Below are positions 29,545 through 56,545 of a DNA stretch of 64,000 nucleotides, piece by piece. The translations under genes were made by a program, and so were the position numbers. The stretch is from Aporrectodea caliginosa (Eukaryota; Annelida; Clitellata; Crassiclitellata; Lumbricidae). The stretch's first letter is position 1. Each line of letters begins with the position of its first letter. The DNA lies in the NCBI GenBank assembly GCA_020284085.1, contig JACEVL010001172.1:1-64000 (forward strand), in the 5' to 3' direction. The notes under the pieces are model-generated. The model saw only the letters and a program-made list of their open reading frames with translations, ran no database searches and was not told where the DNA came from.

Positions 29545-30000
29545 CTACTTAAGCCAAACATCTTCTTTAGTAAAAGGACATTATTACAAACGTGTATTTA
29601 GTCAGTACTGTAGACTGTAGTTGCATTTTACAATCACAAATGTTTCTGAAAATGTGTTGCTCAGTTTTATTGCTATGCGGAAATTAGGCTGCTCAAACAA
29701 CCGCCAGTTCCGTACAGGAAAAATATTAGAAAGAACGTTGATCTCGACTACTGCAACTCGCTTTTCATTGGGATTACTATAAGATTATTTGCAAAAACTA
29801 CATGTACATATGCTTCAAAATTCTCCGGTAATAGCCATAAGAAACCCACCCCACTATAACCATGTTGCACAAATACTGCATTCAATACTCGGGTTGCCGT
29901 TAGAGCAAACATGTCTGTGTGCATGTAAGCTATGTCTTCATAAAACATTGCACTCAAATCACCAGACTTAAAATCTACCTTCCTTGTTCACTCGTAAAGC
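29545..30000 (+). mobile_element. Old L2-like LINE fragment shared by two intergenic regions
   Basis: Broken frames read DYCNS-like and LQNSPVIAIRNPPHYNHV, part of the C-terminal half of an L2-type ORF2. A close relative is at 57545-58220, the equivalent place between copies 3 and 4, so this insertion predates the duplication. Confidence 0.5.
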
Positions 30001-30301: not shown

Positions 30302-46091
<15,790 letters not shown>

Positions 46092-47210: not shown

Positions 47211-48779
47211 CTACATAATAATACTCATTGCGTGTGCACGGATCAAGTGTTTAAAATGAACGAGGCTCTTAGCCTCACGAATGACCAAAGGAAGGTTATT
47301 CCAAACGAGAGGACCTTGGTATTTGATTGAGAACTTACGTGAGTTTGTTCTTGCGAAGATGCATGAGTATTCTCTATTGCTTCTAGTGTCATTGATAGGT
47401 ATAATTGGGCTGAAATAGAAGAGAAAAGCAGGAGGGAGGATATTTCTGCCATACTGGTACATAAACACACCAGTTTGAATAAACTTAATTTGAGAAAGAT
47501 TTAAAAGATTAAATTTCAGATACAGAGGTCTGGTATGGGAATTAGCAGCAGATCTTGTGATTAGTCTTATGGCCTTTTTCTGAATGACCCTTAGATTCAT
47601 CAGGTGGGCGTCGTAAGTTGAAGTCCAGATGAAGTTGCAGTAAGTCAAGTAAGGATATATAAGGGTAAAGTATAAGTTGTTAAGTATGTGGGGAGGAAGA
47701 AGGTAGGATATTCTACGAATAATGCCAATGTTTTTTGAAATTTTCTTAGTGATTTCTAGTATGTGTGTATTCCATTTCAGGTGTTGGTCAATGTGGACCC
47801 CAAGAAACTTAGAGGAAGCGACTTGTGGAATTATTATGTTGTCTATTTTTAGTACGCTGTCAGAGGGTGGAATAATCTTTTTATTGGATCTGAAAATAAT
47901 AAAGTTCGTTTTAGAAATATTTAGGGAGAGTTTGTTAGCTTTGAACCAATCATTAGCCATTGCTAGTTCTTCGTTTGCTATTTTGATTAGTTCTTCGTAG
48001 GAGGCATGTGAAAGAAAAGCATTAGAATCGTCAGCGAATAGAATATAATGAAGGAGAGTCGAGGAGTTAGGAAGATCATTAATGTATATTAAGAATAAGA
48101 GAGGTCCGAGAATAGAACCCTGAGGAACACCAAACATAATAAGTTGGAAGTTGGATAATTTACCATTGCATGAAACTTGTTGATAACGGTTAGTTAAGTA
48201 ACTTTTGAACCAGTCTAATGCTTTGCCTCTGACCCCATAATGTTCCAGTTTAGAGAGTAAGATTTTGTGGTCGACAGTGTCAAAGGCCTTAGCAAGGTCC
48301 AGAAAAATACCAATAGAGAATTCATTGTTATCCATGGCTTGTGTTATTTTATCTTGTATGTCCAATAGGGACATAAAGGTCGAGTGGCCAGGTTGGAAGC
48401 CATGTTGAAAAGGATGAAGAATTTTTTTAGTATTTATAAAGGAGAACAGACGGTCATACATGACCCTTTCAAATAATTTAGAAAAAAAGGGCAAGATAGA
48501 GATTGGTCTAAAATTGGAGACTTCACTTTTATTTCCCTGCTTATGAATAGGCAGCACCTTAGCTAACTTGATGTTTGAGGGGACCTCACCATTTCTAAGT
48601 GAGCAGTTAATTATATCACTCAGTGGAACTGCGATAAGTTCCATGAGGGGAGAGATTAAATAAGGATTGATGTCGTCAGGGCCAGTACTATGGGTAACTT
48701 TCAAGGTTTTATTTATGGTTAGTAACTCTTGAGGGCAAGTAGGTAGGATAACAAAGGAGTTCAATGATGAGGATGGCAT
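47211..48779 (-). CDS. LINE reverse transcriptase ORF
   Basis: 522 codons from an internal ATG. Fingers and palm motifs are present: SNFRPISILP (about 88-97), HGFQPGHST, DLAKAFDTVDH (161-171), GVPQGSILGP (217-226) and catalytic FADD (248-251), followed by the thumb and a C-terminal region ending LVWNNLP. It copies LINE RNA by target-primed reverse transcription in its family. The real ORF continues upstream in another frame (48761-49153), so one frameshift separates this RT from its endonuclease. Confidence 0.9.
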   Translation of the reverse strand: MPSSSLNSFVILPTCPQELLTINKTLKVTHSTGPDDINPYLISPLMELIAVPLSDIINCSLRNGEVPSNIKLAKVLPIHKQGNKSEVSNFRPISILPFFSKLFERVMYDRLFSFINTKKILHPFQHGFQPGHSTFMSLLDIQDKITQAMDNNEFSIGIFLDLAKAFDTVDHKILLSKLEHYGVRGKALDWFKSYLTNRYQQVSCNGKLSNFQLIMFGVPQGSILGPLLFLIYINDLPNSSTLLHYILFADDSNAFLSHASYEELIKIANEELAMANDWFKANKLSLNISKTNFIIFRSNKKIIPPSDSVLKIDNIIIPQVASSKFLGVHIDQHLKWNTHILEITKKISKNIGIIRRISYLLPPHILNNLYFTLIYPYLTYCNFIWTSTYDAHLMNLRVIQKKAIRLITRSAANSHTRPLYLKFNLLNLSQIKFIQTGVFMYQYGRNILPPAFLFYFSPIIPINDTRSNREYSCIFARTNSRKFSIKYQGPLVWNNLPLVIREAKSLVHFKHLIRAHAMSIIM

Positions 48780-49124
48780 ATAGTCTTGGAATAATTTCTT
48801 TGAGGGGGTATTTTTAGCGCAAGTGAATTTGGTAGATTCGTAAAGTAGGAGTTAAATTGATCAGCCATTAGTTCAGGATCTTTTATTGTATTACCATTGA
48901 TATTGATTTCTTTTATAAATGAGTCAGAGTTATCAGATTTGACTATCGACTTGATTATCTGCCAGGTTTTTTTTACATCGTTACAGCATTTTGTAAATTC
49001 ATTAGCGTAGAACTCTTGTTCAATTTTGGTACGAATTATTTTATATTTATTACGATAGGTGGTAAAGATGGCCTTATTTTCAGGAGTAGGGTTTTTAATA
49101 TATTTGATGTACAGTTTTTCTTTC
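48761..49124 (-). pseudogene. LINE linker region between endonuclease and RT
   Basis: Reads KKEKLYIKYIKNPTPENKA and YANEFTKCCNDVKKTWQIIK, the conserved linker after the endonuclease in CR1/L2-type ORF2. It ends with a frameshift before the RT ORF and its 5' edge is the Penelope insertion. Confidence 0.85.
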
Positions 49125-49479
49125 TTTAAAGTGGATAACAATTCTCTGCCCACTCGGACAGCTATGCAGACCCTAAAGTGGATTAAACTGCCAGAAAATC
49201 AACTTTCAGATACTGATATATCAAAGAGCACAGCATCAATCAATCAATTTACAAGAACAAAAGTTATTCAAGCATCAGTGCTAATAGATTAAGAATGTTA
49301 TCACTGTCTATTTTATCTAAATTATTTTTTATTTCTCTTTTCAAGTGCCATGGGGCAGGGTATTTGGAGCTAATTAGAGATTTTTTTATGCTCTTGCTAT
49401 TTTTATAAGCTAGCATTGGTTTGCATTGTATATATTTATAGATCTCAGGGCATTCTGCTATTAGTTCGGACCACAGTTT
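49125..49479 (-). repeat. Terminal direct repeat, 3' copy (PLE)
   Basis: 355 bp covering the last about 72 codons of ORF2 and the 3' UTR, matching 54820-55174 base for base as far as can be read. Confidence 0.95.
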
Positions 49480-51369
49480 ATGTAGCGTTCTTTTGAGTAT
49501 GTTATTTTTGTCGTATTTGTTTTCATATATCAACACTAGTATAGGTCTATCGATTTTCTTAGTTTTAGTTTTATAGGTAAACAACGTTTCTCTGTCTATC
49601 TTAATCAATTTCATAAGTGCATTGTCTAGAATGGATTCAGGGTAATTTCTAAGTTTAAATGAGTTTACCATGCTTGTGACCTTAATAATCAAGTCTGCTG
49701 GATCTGACACAATACGTTTCAGTCTTAAAAATTGACTAAAAGGGATTGACCTTTTGGTATGTGTAGGATGGCAACTGGCATAGTTCAGATAGAGCTTTTT
49801 GTCAGTAGGTTTAGTATATATAGTAGTTTGTAGACCTCCACTGGATTTTCTAACGTTAACATCAAGAAAAGGAATCTCTGTTGTAGATTGATTTAATGTA
49901 AATTTGAAATTTGGGTGAAAGTTGTTAAGGATTTTGAAGTAATCTTTAAGTTCTTCAAGTGTCCTGTTCCAAATACCGAATAGGTCATCTATGAATCTAT
50001 TATGGGCCCACACATGTCTTGGGTTTTCTTTATTAAACCTTTGAAAGAATTTATACATGATTATATTGGCATTCTGAACTGAACTACCCCCACCCATTGT
50101 TAGGCCTTGGATCTGTTTATATATAGTTCCATTAAATGTAAAGTAACAATTTTTCAGGGTGAATTCTAAAAGTCTTTTAAGTAATGCAGCAGGTATGGGT
50201 TTAATGTCTATTTCATACTGTTTCCAATATTTTAATGTTTTAATGTAGTGTTCTATGATGAGTTCAATTCCTAGATCTAGCGGTATATTTGTATACAGTG
50301 ATTCTACATCCATTGTAACTAGGATGGTTTCATTTCTAATTCGATGATGCTCTTTTTTTAATTTATTAAGAAAGTCTGTCGTGTCTTTAATCAGGTTGGG
50401 TATATGGGCTTCTCCTATCTTCAGTACCTGCTGTAAGTAGGTATGTAGTTTATGAGTTAGGCTGTTACATTGCGATATTATAGGTCTCAAAGGGTTTCCT
50501 GTTTTGTGTATTTTGGGTAGTCCATAGATAATTCCCAATTCATTTTTCACGTCACTGATCCAGTTAAATTGCTTTTTAGTTAGGTATGGTTTCAGTTCGT
50601 TAATTAATAGATTATATTTAGTGAGTAAGTCCTCCTGTATAAAATGTTCTTCAGTAGTTTTAAGATATGTTGAATTATTTTCCAAATGTGCTATCATTTT
50701 TTCTTCGTAGTCGCTAGAGTTCATCAGCACTATACCTCCACCTTTATCCGCAGCCTTCAGAATAATTTCCTTATTTTTTCTCAAATTACTAAGAGCTGTG
50801 AGTTCAAATTTATTAATATTCGGGGTATTTTTCACTTTCTGGTTAATGTTTTTAATTTCATATTTTAATTTATTACAAAAATTGCTTATACAATGGTTAG
50901 GATTAGGTGGATACCAATTAGTAGAGATTTTAATCTTCTCTATTTTGGTTTTGTTCTGTTGGTTTTCGTTTTTATTTTTACGGTCTTTAATAATAGTAGA
51001 TGTATTAGCTTTTTCTGCATTTTTATCAAAGAAAATTTTAATTTGTAATTTCCTTTCAAATTTCTCAATTAAATCCATATTTTCTTCATTATAATCTGTA
51101 AAATTATTGGCATAAATGAAGTTAAGGCCTTTGTTTAAAAGAATTAGTTCATGGTGATTCAACTGATAACTAGATAGGTTAGTAACATTCGAATTATCAA
51201 CCACAAGTAAATATTTAGTTATAAATGCTTTTTGCTGTGCTGTTCTTATTCTGCGACTAAGTGTGAATGTTTTTCTAATCTCTCTGAAGTTACGAGGTCT
51301 TTTGTTATGTTCGTTACCTCTTGATTCGACCGCAGTCTTATCGCTGTTATGTTCTAAGTTCGATCCTTG
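49264..51369 (-). CDS. PLE ORF2: Penelope-type reverse transcriptase
   Basis: Open from directly after the TGA at 51372-51370 to the stop at 49264-49266, about 701 codons. Seen along it: LLNKGLNF (a PLE N-terminal block), ADKGGGIVLM, GLPKIHKTGNPLRPIIS, TMDVESLYTNIP (catalytic Asp), GLTMGGGSS, RFIDDLFGIW (FIDD catalytic pair), PFLDVNV, KPTDKKLYLNYASCHP and a thumb ending SLISSKYP. No ATG occurs in the first about 97 codons, which already include conserved RT-proximal sequence, so expression through ORF1 is likely. After the thumb only about 35 residues remain, with no CxC or GIY-YIG segment. GLTMGGGSS differs from the usual GTAMG-type block. Confidence 0.9.
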   Translation of the reverse strand, partial: QGSNLEHNSDKTAVESRGNEHNKRPRNFREIRKTFTLSRRIRTAQQKAFITKYLLVVDNSNVTNLSSYQLNHHELILLNKGLNFIYANNFTDYNEENMDLIEKFERKLQIKIFFDKNAEKANTSTIIKDRKNKNENQQNKTKIEKIKISTNWYPPNPNHCISNFCNKLKYEIKNINQKVKNTPNINKFELTALSNLRKNKEIILKAADKGGGIVLMNSSDYEEKMIAHLENNSTYLKTTEEHFIQEDLLTKYNLLINELKPYLTKKQFNWISDVKNELGIIYGLPKIHKTGNPLRPIISQCNSLTHKLHTYLQQVLKIGEAHIPNLIKDTTDFLNKLKKEHHRIRNETILVTMDVESLYTNIPLDLGIELIIEHYIKTLKYWKQYEIDIKPIPAALLKRLLEFTLKNCYFTFNGTIYKQIQGLTMGGGSSVQNANIIMYKFFQRFNKENPRHVWAHNRFIDDLFGIWNRTLEELKDYFKILNNFHPNFKFTLNQSTTEIPFLDVNVRKSSGGLQTTIYTKPTDKKLYLNYASCHPTHTKRSIPFSQFLRLKRIVSDPADLIIKVTSMVNSFKLRNYPESILDNALMKLIKIDRETLFTYKTKTKKIDRPILVLIYENKYDKNNILKRTLHKLWSELIAECPEIYKYIQCKPMLAYKNSKSIKKSLISSKYPAPWHLKREIKNNLDKIDSDNILNLLALMLE

Positions 51370-52857
51370 TCAGTTCTGTATGTTCGTATTCTCCCTGGCA
51401 AGGTCAGCACCAGTGGAGTTCTGCGTTTGGGTACGAGTCTCCCTGTCAGATTTTCTGTGTAGTTCGATCTGTTGGTTCGTCTGGTCTCTAGGAACCCAGG
51501 CGGTCGATGGGCCCGGCAGAGGAGGTTCACGAGCGTCTGCATAAGATTCTAAAGGTGCAGAATGTAGTTGAGAGCTGGGTCTGTCTTGAGTAGGTAACTG
51601 TCTGGGTGGCAGTGCTTCTGGGAAGTGTGTGCGTGGTTGGTGGGTATATCCAGTTCTTAGGTTGTTCCGGTGCAGTTCAGTTCCTGTTTCTTTTACTTTA
51701 TGCTGTCCAGATGTAGATCTGTCTGTATGTCTAAAGAAAGGGGAGTTCGAGGAATCCCTGTCTTGTTTCCAGTTATTAGTAGCCCCTCTGTAGTTCGAGT
51801 GTTCTCCAGGCCTCATCGATTTGTTCGTACTAGTTCTAACAACTTGACTGTAGAGTGGCTTAACCCCCGGTCGCTGCTGCTGCTGGATATCTTTGTCTGC
51901 TGCTATTGTCTGTGACTGAACTGGATAGTTATGCTGCCTAGCTCCATATTCCTCCCCTTGTCCATTCTCTTGTGTGGTGGATTGTAAGGTCTTCTTCTTG
52001 TAGAGGTAGCTGCCCGCTTGCGTAGCCGCCTTGAATGCCTTAGCCACGACAACTGCTACTTCTGTGTCACTCAGTTGATCCATCATAACCCGAGTTTCTG
52101 TGTTCAACAGTATCAATTTATCGTTTGCTTCCGTGATGATTTTGACTAGTAGATTTCTTCTAAGATGCTCTATCTCGTTCAGGTATAGTTCATATTCGTT
52201 GCTTAGACTGACTGCCAAACTTCTGATTGTCAGCAAGGGTGAGATAGTTCCAGGATCCAAGGGGGGTATGCAGAATTGCTCCAATTGTCGTGACAGTCCT
52301 AGGCCAGTCTTGACCCAGGCAGTCAGTTTGGTTCTGAGTTCCTTAAATAGTTTAAATTCACTATCTGCTAGCCTGCAATTGAGTTGTTCGTTCGTGTATT
52401 GATTTCTTATGGACTTCAGAGCCCCGTACATTTTGTAGAATTCGTCTCTGCTGCTTCTAGTCACTCTCTGGAGGTCGTTCAGTTGATCCTCTTGCAGTGC
52501 CAGGTCAGCTGTGTCTGCTTGCTGCGTGGGGGGTCTAGTATCAACACTAGGCCTACCAGTTTCCTTCATGAGGATGGCCAGGTCATTCACTGTCCTTTCT
52601 AGTTTCTCTATTCTCTCTCTCATTGCCAAAATTTCTGCTTCTGACTCTTTGCAAGCCCCACTGAGTTTACGTTTCCTAGTTGCTATGCATGATTTAGAGT
52701 TTCTGTTTGTTAAAAAAGTATCTAAGAGGTCCATTTCACTGTGTTCTTTTTCAAGATTTCTAAAATTTTGTCTGGGTGTTAGTTGTATAGTCGATGCATC
52801 ACTGTCTGTCATCCCGTGTGGCGGGGTACGTTGCGTTAAAGATAGACTATTTGCCAT
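51370..52857 (-). CDS. PLE ORF1: gag-like coiled-coil protein
   Basis: 495 codons from ATG 52857-52855 to TGA 51372-51370. N-terminal Ser/Thr-rich region, a basic patch (KRKL), then heptad-like LxxxxExxLxxxx sequence about residues 70-100 suggesting a coiled coil, a mainly helical centre, and a Gln/Arg/Thr/Pro-rich C-terminal half. No CCHC knuckle or GIY-YIG motif. It shares the frame of ORF2, separated by one stop. Role in RNA binding or particle assembly is inferred by analogy with gag/ORF1 proteins. Confidence 0.75.
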   Translation of the reverse strand: MANSLSLTQRTPPHGMTDSDASTIQLTPRQNFRNLEKEHSEMDLLDTFLTNRNSKSCIATRKRKLSGACKESEAEILAMRERIEKLERTVNDLAILMKETGRPSVDTRPPTQQADTADLALQEDQLNDLQRVTRSSRDEFYKMYGALKSIRNQYTNEQLNCRLADSEFKLFKELRTKLTAWVKTGLGLSRQLEQFCIPPLDPGTISPLLTIRSLAVSLSNEYELYLNEIEHLRRNLLVKIITEANDKLILLNTETRVMMDQLSDTEVAVVVAKAFKAATQAGSYLYKKKTLQSTTQENGQGEEYGARQHNYPVQSQTIAADKDIQQQQRPGVKPLYSQVVRTSTNKSMRPGEHSNYRGATNNWKQDRDSSNSPFFRHTDRSTSGQHKVKETGTELHRNNLRTGYTHQPRTHFPEALPPRQLPTQDRPSSQLHSAPLESYADAREPPLPGPSTAWVPRDQTNQQIELHRKSDRETRTQTQNSTGADLARENTNIQN

Positions 52858-52986
52858 GTTGTAGTAAAGATCAGTAAATTACAGTTCTCTTGTATGTCAT
52901 GTTGTAGTAAATATCAACGGAATAAAGAGGTGTTCTTTGGTGCAACTTTATTAAATTCAAATCCTTTAATGAAACGATTTAGAAGT

Positions 52987-53029
52987 GGCTGTAGCGCTTT
53001 CGTCTGCTTTACATGACTCGTCAGCAGCC
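52987..53029 (-). ncRNA. Hammerhead ribozyme motif (type I, minimal stem III)
   Basis: Minus strand, 53029 to 52987: stem I strand GGCUG; core CUGACGA; stem II GUC with loop AUGUAAAGCA and GAC; core GAAA; stem III GCGC; cleavage triplet CUA; stem I strand CAGCC, perfectly paired with GGCUG. All invariant core bases are present. The self-complementary GCGC with no loop fits the very short stem III of Penelope-type hammerheads, thought to work as dimers. It lies 130 bp upstream of the ORF1 ATG. Confidence 0.87.
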
Positions 53030-53194
53030 TAGTATCTAGAACAATTAAAAATTAACTTCTAAAATAAGTATAGCAAAAAATGCATATTAAAATCACTCAA
53101 ATATCTTATGGGCCTACAACAGAAATGCATTCAAACACAGCAAACAATCAAATAAAACTGAACAGTGCAATAACTATACTTAAGACAAACAAAA

Positions 53195-53508
53195 AACTAA
53201 GTAGAAACACATATAAGTAGGTAATTAAAAATTATTTAAGGCTATAGATATGATATTATAATGTCAGTGAAGAGCAGTTAGGTCTAGAAGGCAGTATAAT
53301 GTAATTTAAGAGACATTAAGGGTAATGGGAGAGGTCTGGAGCGAAGAAAATAAGAACTAAGTAGAAACACATATAAGTAGGTAATTAAAAAAAATTTTTT
53401 AAGGGCTATAGATAAGAAATTATAATGTCAGTGAAGAGCAGTTAGGTATAAAGGGCAGTATAATGTATTTTAAGAGACATTAAGGGTAATGGGAGAGGTC
53501 CGGAGCTA
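53195..53508 (-). repeat. 160-bp tandem duplication in the PLE leader
   Basis: Two imperfect units (53195-53354 and 53355-53508) sharing gtagaaacacatataagtag, gtgaagagcagttagg and gacattaagggtaatgggag. Confidence 0.85.
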
Positions 53509-54819
53509 TGAAAGTGAAGGAAACTTAGCAAACTTACAAAAGCAATATAATTATTAAAACCGAAGAGCAAAAATATCTATCTACATTCAAACTACTAATT
53601 ATAATGTAGGCTATGTATTTAAAATAAAACAGTGCTATAAAATAACTAATTGAACTCAAAATATACATTATATACAGTGCAGTGAGTCTCTTTAAAATAC
53701 CGTCTCTGATCAGACACAGTCTCTATTGCGTAGTGCAGTGAGACAAGACCAAGTTTAAAATATATAAAATAAATCATTTCCCTTAATATATTTAAAAACT
53801 GGCTTGACCATTCATTTCTTAAAGCGTTTAACTAAATATAAATTAAGTTACCTTAGTTCACAATTTATTTTAAATGAAGAAAATAAGAACTTAAAAGGAC
53901 CAATTGTCCAACGATTCAAGCTGCCCGCAAGTAATGAAAATAATCCATTGAAGGACGACAGTCTAAGTTATGTGTAGAAATTTTATAGCGCTATATTGAA
54001 GTGATCTCTGTAAGAAATATTTAAGACAGGGGGCCCTACGGCTCTAAGTGCTTAATATGCATACCTCAAAGGGCATGTATATTTTTTAACATTATTGGCC
54101 ACGTAGTGTGACCAATATAATTAAGCACAACCTGTCTAACATAAAAATATAAAGTTCGCTAACTATCGAGTCAGGTATATAATAACAAAAAGATCGCTAG
54201 ATGTCTAATAGTAAGTGACTATAATAATCGCTAGATGTCACTATGTCTAAAACATATGCTCCGCTACTAATGCAGTCGGCAATCACAACAATGTTGATAA
54301 TCTGACGCCATTTTACGAGACAGTCAAACTCATATACAATATCTATTAAAATGTCATGTTTTAAACAAATCTAGTGTGTTTTACGTTACTTAAAAATCAA
54401 ATCAAGTAATTTAAAACGTTGCGAGTACATGGTTAACTACAAGTCAGGCACTATGGGTAGTTAAAACTGAAACCGAAAGCGCTTAGGTAATTCAGAGTTC
54501 CTTACTACAGAAATAGTCAAACTATGACTGCTAGCACAAGTGGCAGTCCAATTTAAAACATTTCTAAATTATAATTTCAATGTGATAAATGCAGTATTTC
54601 TAATTGTTGTTTTAGCATTAGACCAAACCAACAGGAGGCCATCATCAATGTATCCAACCAACAACATCAATCAAAGTTCTTCACAAATTCTACTGTCTGG
54701 AGATCTCCATGCAAAAACAGTCTGCAACTACAACTAATGACAAGTTTCCAAAGCTACTGGCACACTTAACTGATACATCAAGGATTAAAACCACTGAAAA
54801 GACATCAATTATTATGTAA
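53509..54819 (-). other. PLE 5' leader, non-coding
   Basis: AT-rich sequence without a supported ORF. Given the tandem arrangement it probably contains the promoter of the full unit. No further hammerhead core (CUGANGA plus GAAA in register) was found by eye. Confidence 0.5.
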
Positions 54820-55174
54820 TTTAAAGTGGATAACAATTCTCTGCCCACTCGGACAGCTATGCAGACCCTAAAGTGGATTAAACTGCCAGAAAATCAACTT
54901 TCAGATACTGATATATCAAAGAGCACAGCATCAATCAATCAATTTACAAGAACAAAAGTTATTCAAGCATCAGTGCTAATAGATTAAGAATGTTATCACT
55001 GTCTATTTTATCTAAATTATTTTTTATTTCTCTTTTCAAGTGCCATGGGGCAGGGTATTTGGAGCTAATTAGAGATTTTTTTATGCTCTTGCTATTTTTA
55101 TAAGCTAGCATTGGTTTGCATTGTATATATTTATAGATCTCAGGGCATTCTGCTATTAGTTCGGACCACAGTTT
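54820..55174 (-). repeat. Terminal direct repeat, 5' partial copy (PLE pseudo-LTR)
   Basis: Same 355 bp in the same orientation ahead of the full unit, the tandem partial-plus-full arrangement usual for Penelope-like elements. Being 5'-truncated, it does not include the hammerhead motif. Confidence 0.95.
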
Positions 55175-55566
55175 GGAATTATGCAAGCCTTGTGTCATCC
55201 ATGGATGTTGAAAAGTGTTCTTTTTGGAGGTCTTCTTTACTTTTAATGGAAATGCTTGGTCGTAGTTAAGTTTAATTATATTTATGAATGAGGTGTAAGC
55301 TAGGTTTGTTTCTTCTTGATCACATAGCAGTTTTACAGATGACCAGTCAGCATCAGCCAATAGCCTTTTAAAATTAGAGATGGTATCCTGGTTAACAGTC
55401 CTTGACATCTCGATGGTTCTTGGAGTACATTGGGTATTTAAGTCATTCTGAATCCAAGTAATAATAGGTAAATGGTCGGAAATATCAGATATTATTATCG
55501 CCGAATTGATAACACAGTCTGCAGAGTTGGTAAAAGTGTTGTCGATTAGGGTAGCAGTGGTAGGAG
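55175..55566 (-). pseudogene. LINE endonuclease C-terminal fragment
   Basis: Reads LIDNTFTNSADCVINSA, then ISDHLPIITW (the SDH catalytic motif) and HPWMTQGLHNS, where the Penelope-like element begins. The frame continues by chance into the tail of the Penelope ORF2 and stops at 54959-54961. Confidence 0.85.
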
Positions 55567-56545
55567 TAATCCTATCGCAAATCAAAGAATCGTAATCGGA
55601 ATCCCCAAAAGTCTAAAGCGCCATTCGAAATCCAAGTAGGGGTGTGGGTTTTAGTCAAGAGCGCTGCGTCGAGTCAGAGAGGTTGTCCAAGGGTAGTTCG
55701 AAGGAGGTCCGTGCGACTGGTTCCAGCGACTTCGTTTTTTCCCCGTATTATGTCGAGAATACGACAACGATTTTTGATAAATCGCGCGACCATCTTATGT
55801 AATCTGACCACCTAATTTCTATCAGTCGAAATAAAAATTGTCTATAACATTACAACATGGGCGTAGCCAGGAAAAAATTTCGGATGGGTTTTAAGTTTTC
55901 AGGGGGTTCAATTGGAAATGGCCGAAAATTTAAGTTTTTTTGGTATTTCGCATATAGCTGCATAAAAAGAAAAAAAATTGAATTTCTTTGAGGGGTTTGA
56001 ACCCATAGAACTCCCCCTAAATACGCCCATGCATCACAATGACGATCGATAGAGATTCGGTTATTGCTCGACCACCTTCACGGAAGCATGTAGCGGCTGT
56101 TGCTCTACGATTGTAGTCTGTTGCTTCTTGCCTTGTATATACAAATATCTGTGCACTTACTATGCCGCCATCTAAGTAGGCCAACCTGAAAGATCGCTGC
56201 CTGCGTTCATCTAAATGATGTTAAGAAAAACGGTCGTCTATCTACCTATCTATCTATGAAATTTATATAACGCCCCTTCAAGATAACTATTCAGATTTCA
56301 GAGGCGCTCCCGACCCAGGTCCGGTCAAAAAGAAATTCTTAAGGACTGTAGTTTATAAAAAGCGCCAAAGGTTTCGCGGGAGAGAACGCACCGCAGAGGA
56401 GAGGCTATTCCAAAGAAAAGGACTCACGATCGAGATCAAATAGCGAAGCTTGTTCGGATAAACTAGAAGCATCACCACAGGTGAGCGGCCGCAATCAAGT
56501 ATACTGCCCAAGTATACTGTCATCTCAAGTATACTGCCAAGTATA
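55567..56545. other. Intergenic DNA paralogous to 28230-29030, with decayed LINE/SINE ends
   Basis: Aligns with the region upstream of copy 2. Includes tails with the AGCGC motif (55600-55760) and a minus-strand L2-like C-terminus (56240-56480). 55860-56030 is extra sequence with no recognised feature. Confidence 0.5.

Follow-up and report, generated by a model that had tools for sequence, protein, structure and literature searches.

Penelope-like elements are known to carry minimal type I hammerhead ribozymes without a helix III (PMC6155905, PMC7761336). It has been proposed that these hammerheads cleave as dimers (PMC7761336), and Penelope elements are counted among the RNAs with double-hammerhead structures (PMC6466107). 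Dimeric cleavage of such variants is also stated in the title of Lunse, Weinberg and Breaker 2017 (cited in PMC7761336 and PMC6466107). The role and activity of the hammerhead in Penelope-like elements in vivo has nevertheless been called "still a mystery" (PMC7761336). The PAc element (Poseidon) of Anolis carolinensis, which is active in vitro, has its hammerhead at the junction between terminal repeat and ORF. This hammerhead cleaved only with the element protein, its mutants were described as having no effect on insertion in vitro, and RNA ends corresponding to its cut were reported as not found (PMC11167929). Elements lacking an endonuclease form a recognised subgroup of the Penelope elements (PMC6431247). 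Hammerheads that cleave better as dimers have also been described from axolotl and newt (PMC7229834).

The DNA analysed here, a stretch of 64 kb referred to as the window, has a hammerhead motif on the minus strand at 53029-52987 (Table 1). It reads GGCTG-CTGACGA-GTC-ATGTAAAGCA-GAC-GAAA-GCGC-TA-CAGCC as DNA and GGCUG CUGACGA GUC AUGUAAAGCA GAC GAAA GCGC UA CAGCC as RNA. The invariant core of type I hammerheads is CUGANGA ... GAAA ... UH, and every base of it is present, as CUGACGA...GAAA...UA in type I order. Stem I is formed by GGCUG/CAGCC (5 bp) and stem II by GUC/GAC (3 bp), with 3 bp more beyond a bulged A in the minimum-energy fold, and the position of stem III is taken by the palindrome GCGC. 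All invariant bases in order, the two stems and the GCGC stem III had been named in a preliminary description of this DNA, and direct reading found each of them. Intramolecular pairing in place of stem III is absent beyond one A-U pair over the GCGC tetraloop, a closure that should be weak in a single copy. The cut presumably falls after A17 of the hammerhead numbering, which we take to be the A at 52992, so that the 3' product would begin at 52991. The ATG of ORF1 (52857) lies 134 nt downstream of this site.

We regard the motif as very likely a true ribozyme, one of the minimal hammerheads found in Penelope-like elements, with a predicted cut after 52992. It resembles the minimal Penelope hammerheads (Cervera and De la Pena 2014; Lunse, Weinberg and Breaker 2017), as summarised in PMC6155905, PMC7761336 and PMC6466107, in type I order, in the missing or palindromic helix III, in the dimeric cleavage that is expected and in the Penelope-type carrier. 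The loopless stem III had been presented as a peculiarity, a view we do not retain, because Penelope-like elements are already known for minimal, probably dimer-cleaving hammerheads; it is a known form of the ribozyme, and the usual one in Penelope hammerheads (PMC6155905, PMC7761336). Stem I, stem II and loop II are present in the PAc hammerhead (PMC11167929) as in the motif of the window. The axolotl motif HHR_Amex1 also has a helix III of one base pair over a palindromic tetraloop, and it keeps loop-loop contacts; the axolotl and newt motifs are, however, part of short non-coding tandem repeats, whereas the motif described here belongs to a protein-coding retroelement (PMC7229834).

Table 1. 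Features of the insertion, its hammerhead motif and the interrupted LINE (positions in the window).
Feature	Position	Strand	Basis or remark
Minimal type I hammerhead motif	52987..53029	-	Direct reading, strict scan, chance simulations, dimer fold
Predicted cleavage site	52991..52992	-	Hammerhead numbering applied to the sequence
Possible outer helix past stem I	UAGA 53035..53038 with UCUA 52980-52983	-	Minimum-energy fold
Left 355-bp direct repeat	54820..55174	-	100% identical to right copy
Right 355-bp direct repeat	49125..49479	-	Ends ...TTTAAA at the LINE
Leader, 1790 bp, left repeat to hammerhead	53030..54819	-	
ORF1, 495 aa, no known domain	51370..52857	-	
ORF2, Penelope-type reverse transcriptase without detectable GIY-YIG	49264..51369	-	
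Host LINE, 5' part, left of the insertion	55175..55585	-	
Host LINE, 3' part, right of the insertion	47211..49124	-	Frame broken once

Structurally the motif is a common one; what is unusual is its place, outside both repeats and away from either end of the insertion. The insertion is 6050 bp long with a unit of 5695 bp, and the 355-bp repeat represents the 3' end of the element, consisting of the last part of ORF2 followed by 139 nt, which gives a partial-tandem (pseudo-LTR) layout. It appears to be young, since the two repeats are identical and the ORFs long and open. Repeat coordinates and scan agree with the earlier placement of the hammerhead outside the repeat and in one copy per insertion; it lies 1.8 kb from the repeat. 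The reviewed Penelope hammerheads, by contrast, are located in the pseudo-LTRs and occur in tandem. With PAc the window shares a hammerhead at the junction of leader and ORF. PAc differs in having a GIY-YIG domain and a single ORF, inside which the cut falls 26 bp past the start, whereas the element in the window has two ORFs, no endonuclease that we could find, and a cut predicted ahead of ORF1 (PMC11167929). The reading as a leader hammerhead of a Penelope-like element, with a palindrome that suggests dimeric cleavage, is well supported by the anatomy of the insertion and by earlier knowledge of such hammerheads.

The position of the motif could be explained differently if the element proper began, at its 5' side, with the hammerhead. 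The leader of 1.8 kb would then be DNA of the source locus, brought along in an uncleaved transcript by 5' transduction or spacer capture. In support of this, the leader outside the repeat has no listed ORF of at least 100 aa and no significant match to the relatives of the reverse transcriptase, spacers of 0.9-1.5 kb that differ from copy to copy are described for the bdelloid element Pen1 (PMC3846280), and the Anolis hammerhead is located at the junction of repeat and ORF (PMC11167929). However, the captured spacers of Pen1 precede the 3' repeat, which is a different place (PMC3846280), and a leader of regular element sequence accounts for the layout equally well. A captured leader is an explanation to be taken seriously, although we consider it somewhat improbable. 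Two further features of the leader may be mentioned. It holds a 164-bp tandem duplication at 53195-53513, with two copies about 91% alike, and near 54650 one frame of the minus strand reads YIDDGLLLVW, similar to the catalytic motif of reverse transcriptases. We do not claim a reverse transcriptase relic at this place, where the reverse transcriptase profile gave an E of 1.1 and the best protein match an E of 0.23.

The repeats and the single hammerhead could also both be explained if the insertion derived from a circular RNA of 5695 nt, processed by the hammerhead and copied over one full turn and a further 355 nt. The geometry fits, with an identical overlap of 355 bp, a unit of 5695 bp and one hammerhead per unit, and hammerhead-processed circles have been reported for the non-autonomous retrozymes (PMC7229834). 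The same layout, however, results where a 5'-truncated copy and a full one form a partial tandem. Such tandems are described for Penelope elements, and one of them is likewise situated inside a non-LTR retrotransposon (PMC3846280). An origin from circular RNA seems unlikely to us.

A strict scan for pattern and pairing (core, 3-bp stem II, 5-bp stem I, any stem III) over both strands of the 64-kb window gave this motif as its single match. When one core mismatch and a 4-bp stem I were allowed, a single extra and unrelated place was found, at 29646 on the plus strand. Among 1500 simulated 64-kb strands of second order there were 25 matches with any stem III, equal to 0.033 per two-stranded window, and the form with a short palindromic stem III occurred in 0 of the 1500. 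First-order simulations (n = 60, loops up to 60 nt) gave 0.1 per window with any stem III and 0 for the palindromic form.

Searches of viral contigs with CTGANGA...GAAAGCGCTH returned at least 120 exact matches, and none among the matches listed had both stem I and stem II of 3 bp or more; a tight minimal-hammerhead pattern returned none from the same contigs. Related loci were sought in the viral contigs through ORF2 or its alignment (3 and 54 pattern-matching stretches) and through the ORF1 relative P0122 (7 stretches), with no relative among them. One scan of genome contigs gave 48 stretches, three of which are distant Penelope-type contigs (L001-L003), and neither scan nor Rfam found a hammerhead in these three. 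Their reverse transcriptases are of Penelope type at 27-30% identity, and the contigs are binned as bacterial (Enterovibrio, Poribacteria, Proteobacteria), probably as a result of eukaryotic contamination of the bins.

Rfam gave no hammerhead for the whole window at the gathering threshold, and none at E up to 10 for 48500-56500 and 52940-53075. The covariance check named in the preliminary description as a possible refutation hence ended below threshold. The silence of Rfam is weak evidence either way, because a model that includes stem III may give a low score to a motif that has none.

In the minimum-energy fold of the monomer stems I and II are kept and the core is mispaired, and 70 of 200 shuffles of the motif folded at least as well, as did 156 and 118 of 200 for two larger contexts. 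The fold of 52970-53045 has a putative outer helix past stem I, separated from it by an internal loop with 5 nt on one side and 3 nt on the other. Support for this helix is weak, as 156 of 200 shuffles of this context fold at least as well. When two copies of the 43-mer were cofolded, the minimum-energy structure (-27.1 kcal/mol) was exactly the symmetric double hammerhead, in which AGCGCU pairs with AGCGCU to give a stem III of 6 bp and the strands of stem I are exchanged between the copies. The gain of the dimer over two monomers (-7.5) is ordinary and was reached by 522 of 1000 shuffles, and the dimer energy itself by 354 of 1000. We therefore rejected the dimer energy as a sign of function. 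The form of the modelled dimer is informative and its stability is not, and the form is largely a consequence of the palindrome.

That the motif arose by chance or is a decayed remnant, hammerhead-like but inactive or of no use to the element, would agree with the silence of Rfam, the mispaired monomer core and the three distant contigs without a hammerhead, but it is improbable in view of the simulated frequencies, the intact core and stems, the location just upstream of ORF1 in an element class known for hammerheads and the apparently young insertion.

Placement just ahead of ORF1 in a Penelope-type element, a class with conserved motifs of this kind (PMC6155905, PMC7761336), supports a ribozyme. 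Such a ribozyme would cut the RNA of the element after the A at 52992 and leave an RNA that starts 134 nt ahead of ORF1, detaching the ORF1 RNA from the 1.8-kb upstream leader. Efficient cleavage would be expected where two motifs, carried by separate RNAs (in trans) or by neighbouring units of one tandem transcript, join by 6 bp along the self-complementary AGCGCU and exchange the strands of stem I. Alternatively, the element's own protein may aid cleavage by holding the fold. The cut might serve to trim the 5' end of an mRNA or of a template. Even a real motif may matter little, however, because in Anolis cleavage was not seen without protein and insertion in vitro did not depend on it, nor were RNA ends detected where the hammerhead cuts (PMC11167929). 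In an element whose ribozyme is unlinked from both terminal repeat and endonuclease, processing of the 5' end would be set apart from integration, and the role of the hammerhead would become testable; otherwise the motif in the window is one more instance of a known motif.

ORF2 matches Pfam RVT_1 (E 4e-13), and PF28514/PF26215, which occur in the reverse transcriptase matches, are presumably of Penelope type. A total of 7995 candidates were scored; the best 120 of at least 139 relatives are 25-80% identical to ORF2, and 21 of these 120 have the GIY-YIG domain (PF01541). Pfam found no GIY-YIG in ORF2 of the window or in its 14 closest listed relatives (P0001-P0014, 47-80% identity). Eleven of the 14 were aligned, leaving out the shorter P0005, P0011 and P0014. 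The ends of these eleven fall within a few residues of the position from which P0015-P0017 continue into further sequence, and Pfam marks a GIY-YIG in those three. A quick tree with SH-aLRT support and no bootstrap was made from 75 rows, the window and 74 of the 120 listed relatives. The window and P0001-P0014 form one clade (SH-aLRT 100), adjoining a group of 12 rows of which five have GIY-YIG. The GIY-YIG label is patchy across the tree (17 rows, 10 changes), so some of the absences outside the window clade may be due to fragments or Pfam misses.

The endonuclease-deficient telomeric Penelope elements and the Terminons of bdelloids likewise combine a Penelope-type reverse transcriptase without an endonuclease domain of its own with further ORFs and a hammerhead (PMC6431247). 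In Terminons the hammerhead is located at the 3' end by telomeric repeats (PMC6431247), whereas the insertion in the window lies internally in a LINE and ends in TTTAAA. The four rotifer-named reverse transcriptases in the tree (P0064-P0066 and P0073) are far from the window clade. This suggests that the endonuclease was lost separately from the bdelloid telomeric elements; the clade may equal a named group, e.g. Athena or Coprina. We tentatively picture a two-ORF, endonuclease-less and apparently animal lineage that inserts internally, perhaps at breaks and without target duplication. Its dimer-type hammerhead would have moved from the terminal repeat to the mRNA leader, where it would process a long transcript to give the ORF1 message its 5' end and would have ceased to mark an insertion end. 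This picture as a whole is rather speculative.

ORF1 has four relatives (P0122-P0125); the alignment with P0122 begins at the start Met of both and shows 54% identity. Pfam gave no match reaching the cut-off for ORF1 of the window, P0122, P0124 or P0125. The longest contig of the reverse transcriptase P0003 and that of the ORF1 relative P0124 are the same length (4547), which suggests that ORF1 and ORF2 may be neighbours in that source too. The two ORFs are in the same frame and parted by a single TGA (51369-51372, minus strand; context AAC TGA CAA GGA). In this copy the first Met of ORF2 comes 35 residues after the conserved TNLSS motif begins, while P0001 and P0003 start with a Met that precedes this motif by a good distance. 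ORF2 may be reached by readthrough or reinitiation, or its start may be damaged.

The insertion interrupts a LINE. The 120 listed relatives of this LINE include 74 that do not match the pattern used for the site, and all 46 readable ones have 9 residues between GL and LY. Joining the flanks leaves 2-8 target bases missing, depending on how AAA is assigned at both junctions, and no target duplication was seen. Lack of a target duplication has also been described, together with microhomology, for an endonuclease-bearing Penelope element (PMC3846280), so it is not in itself proof of endonuclease-free entry. Reading of the 3' end of the insertion revealed no telomeric repeats. At this end (49125-49161, minus strand) a 6-bp hairpin, CUGUCC/GGGCAG, is followed by a short tail ending in UUUAAA; this end is possibly a recognition or start site for the reverse transcriptase. 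The LINE and the Penelope element, together with an ORF at 45297-46091 on the minus strand that matches the organic anion transporters (Pfam OATP, E 3e-39), suggest that the DNA comes from an animal genome.
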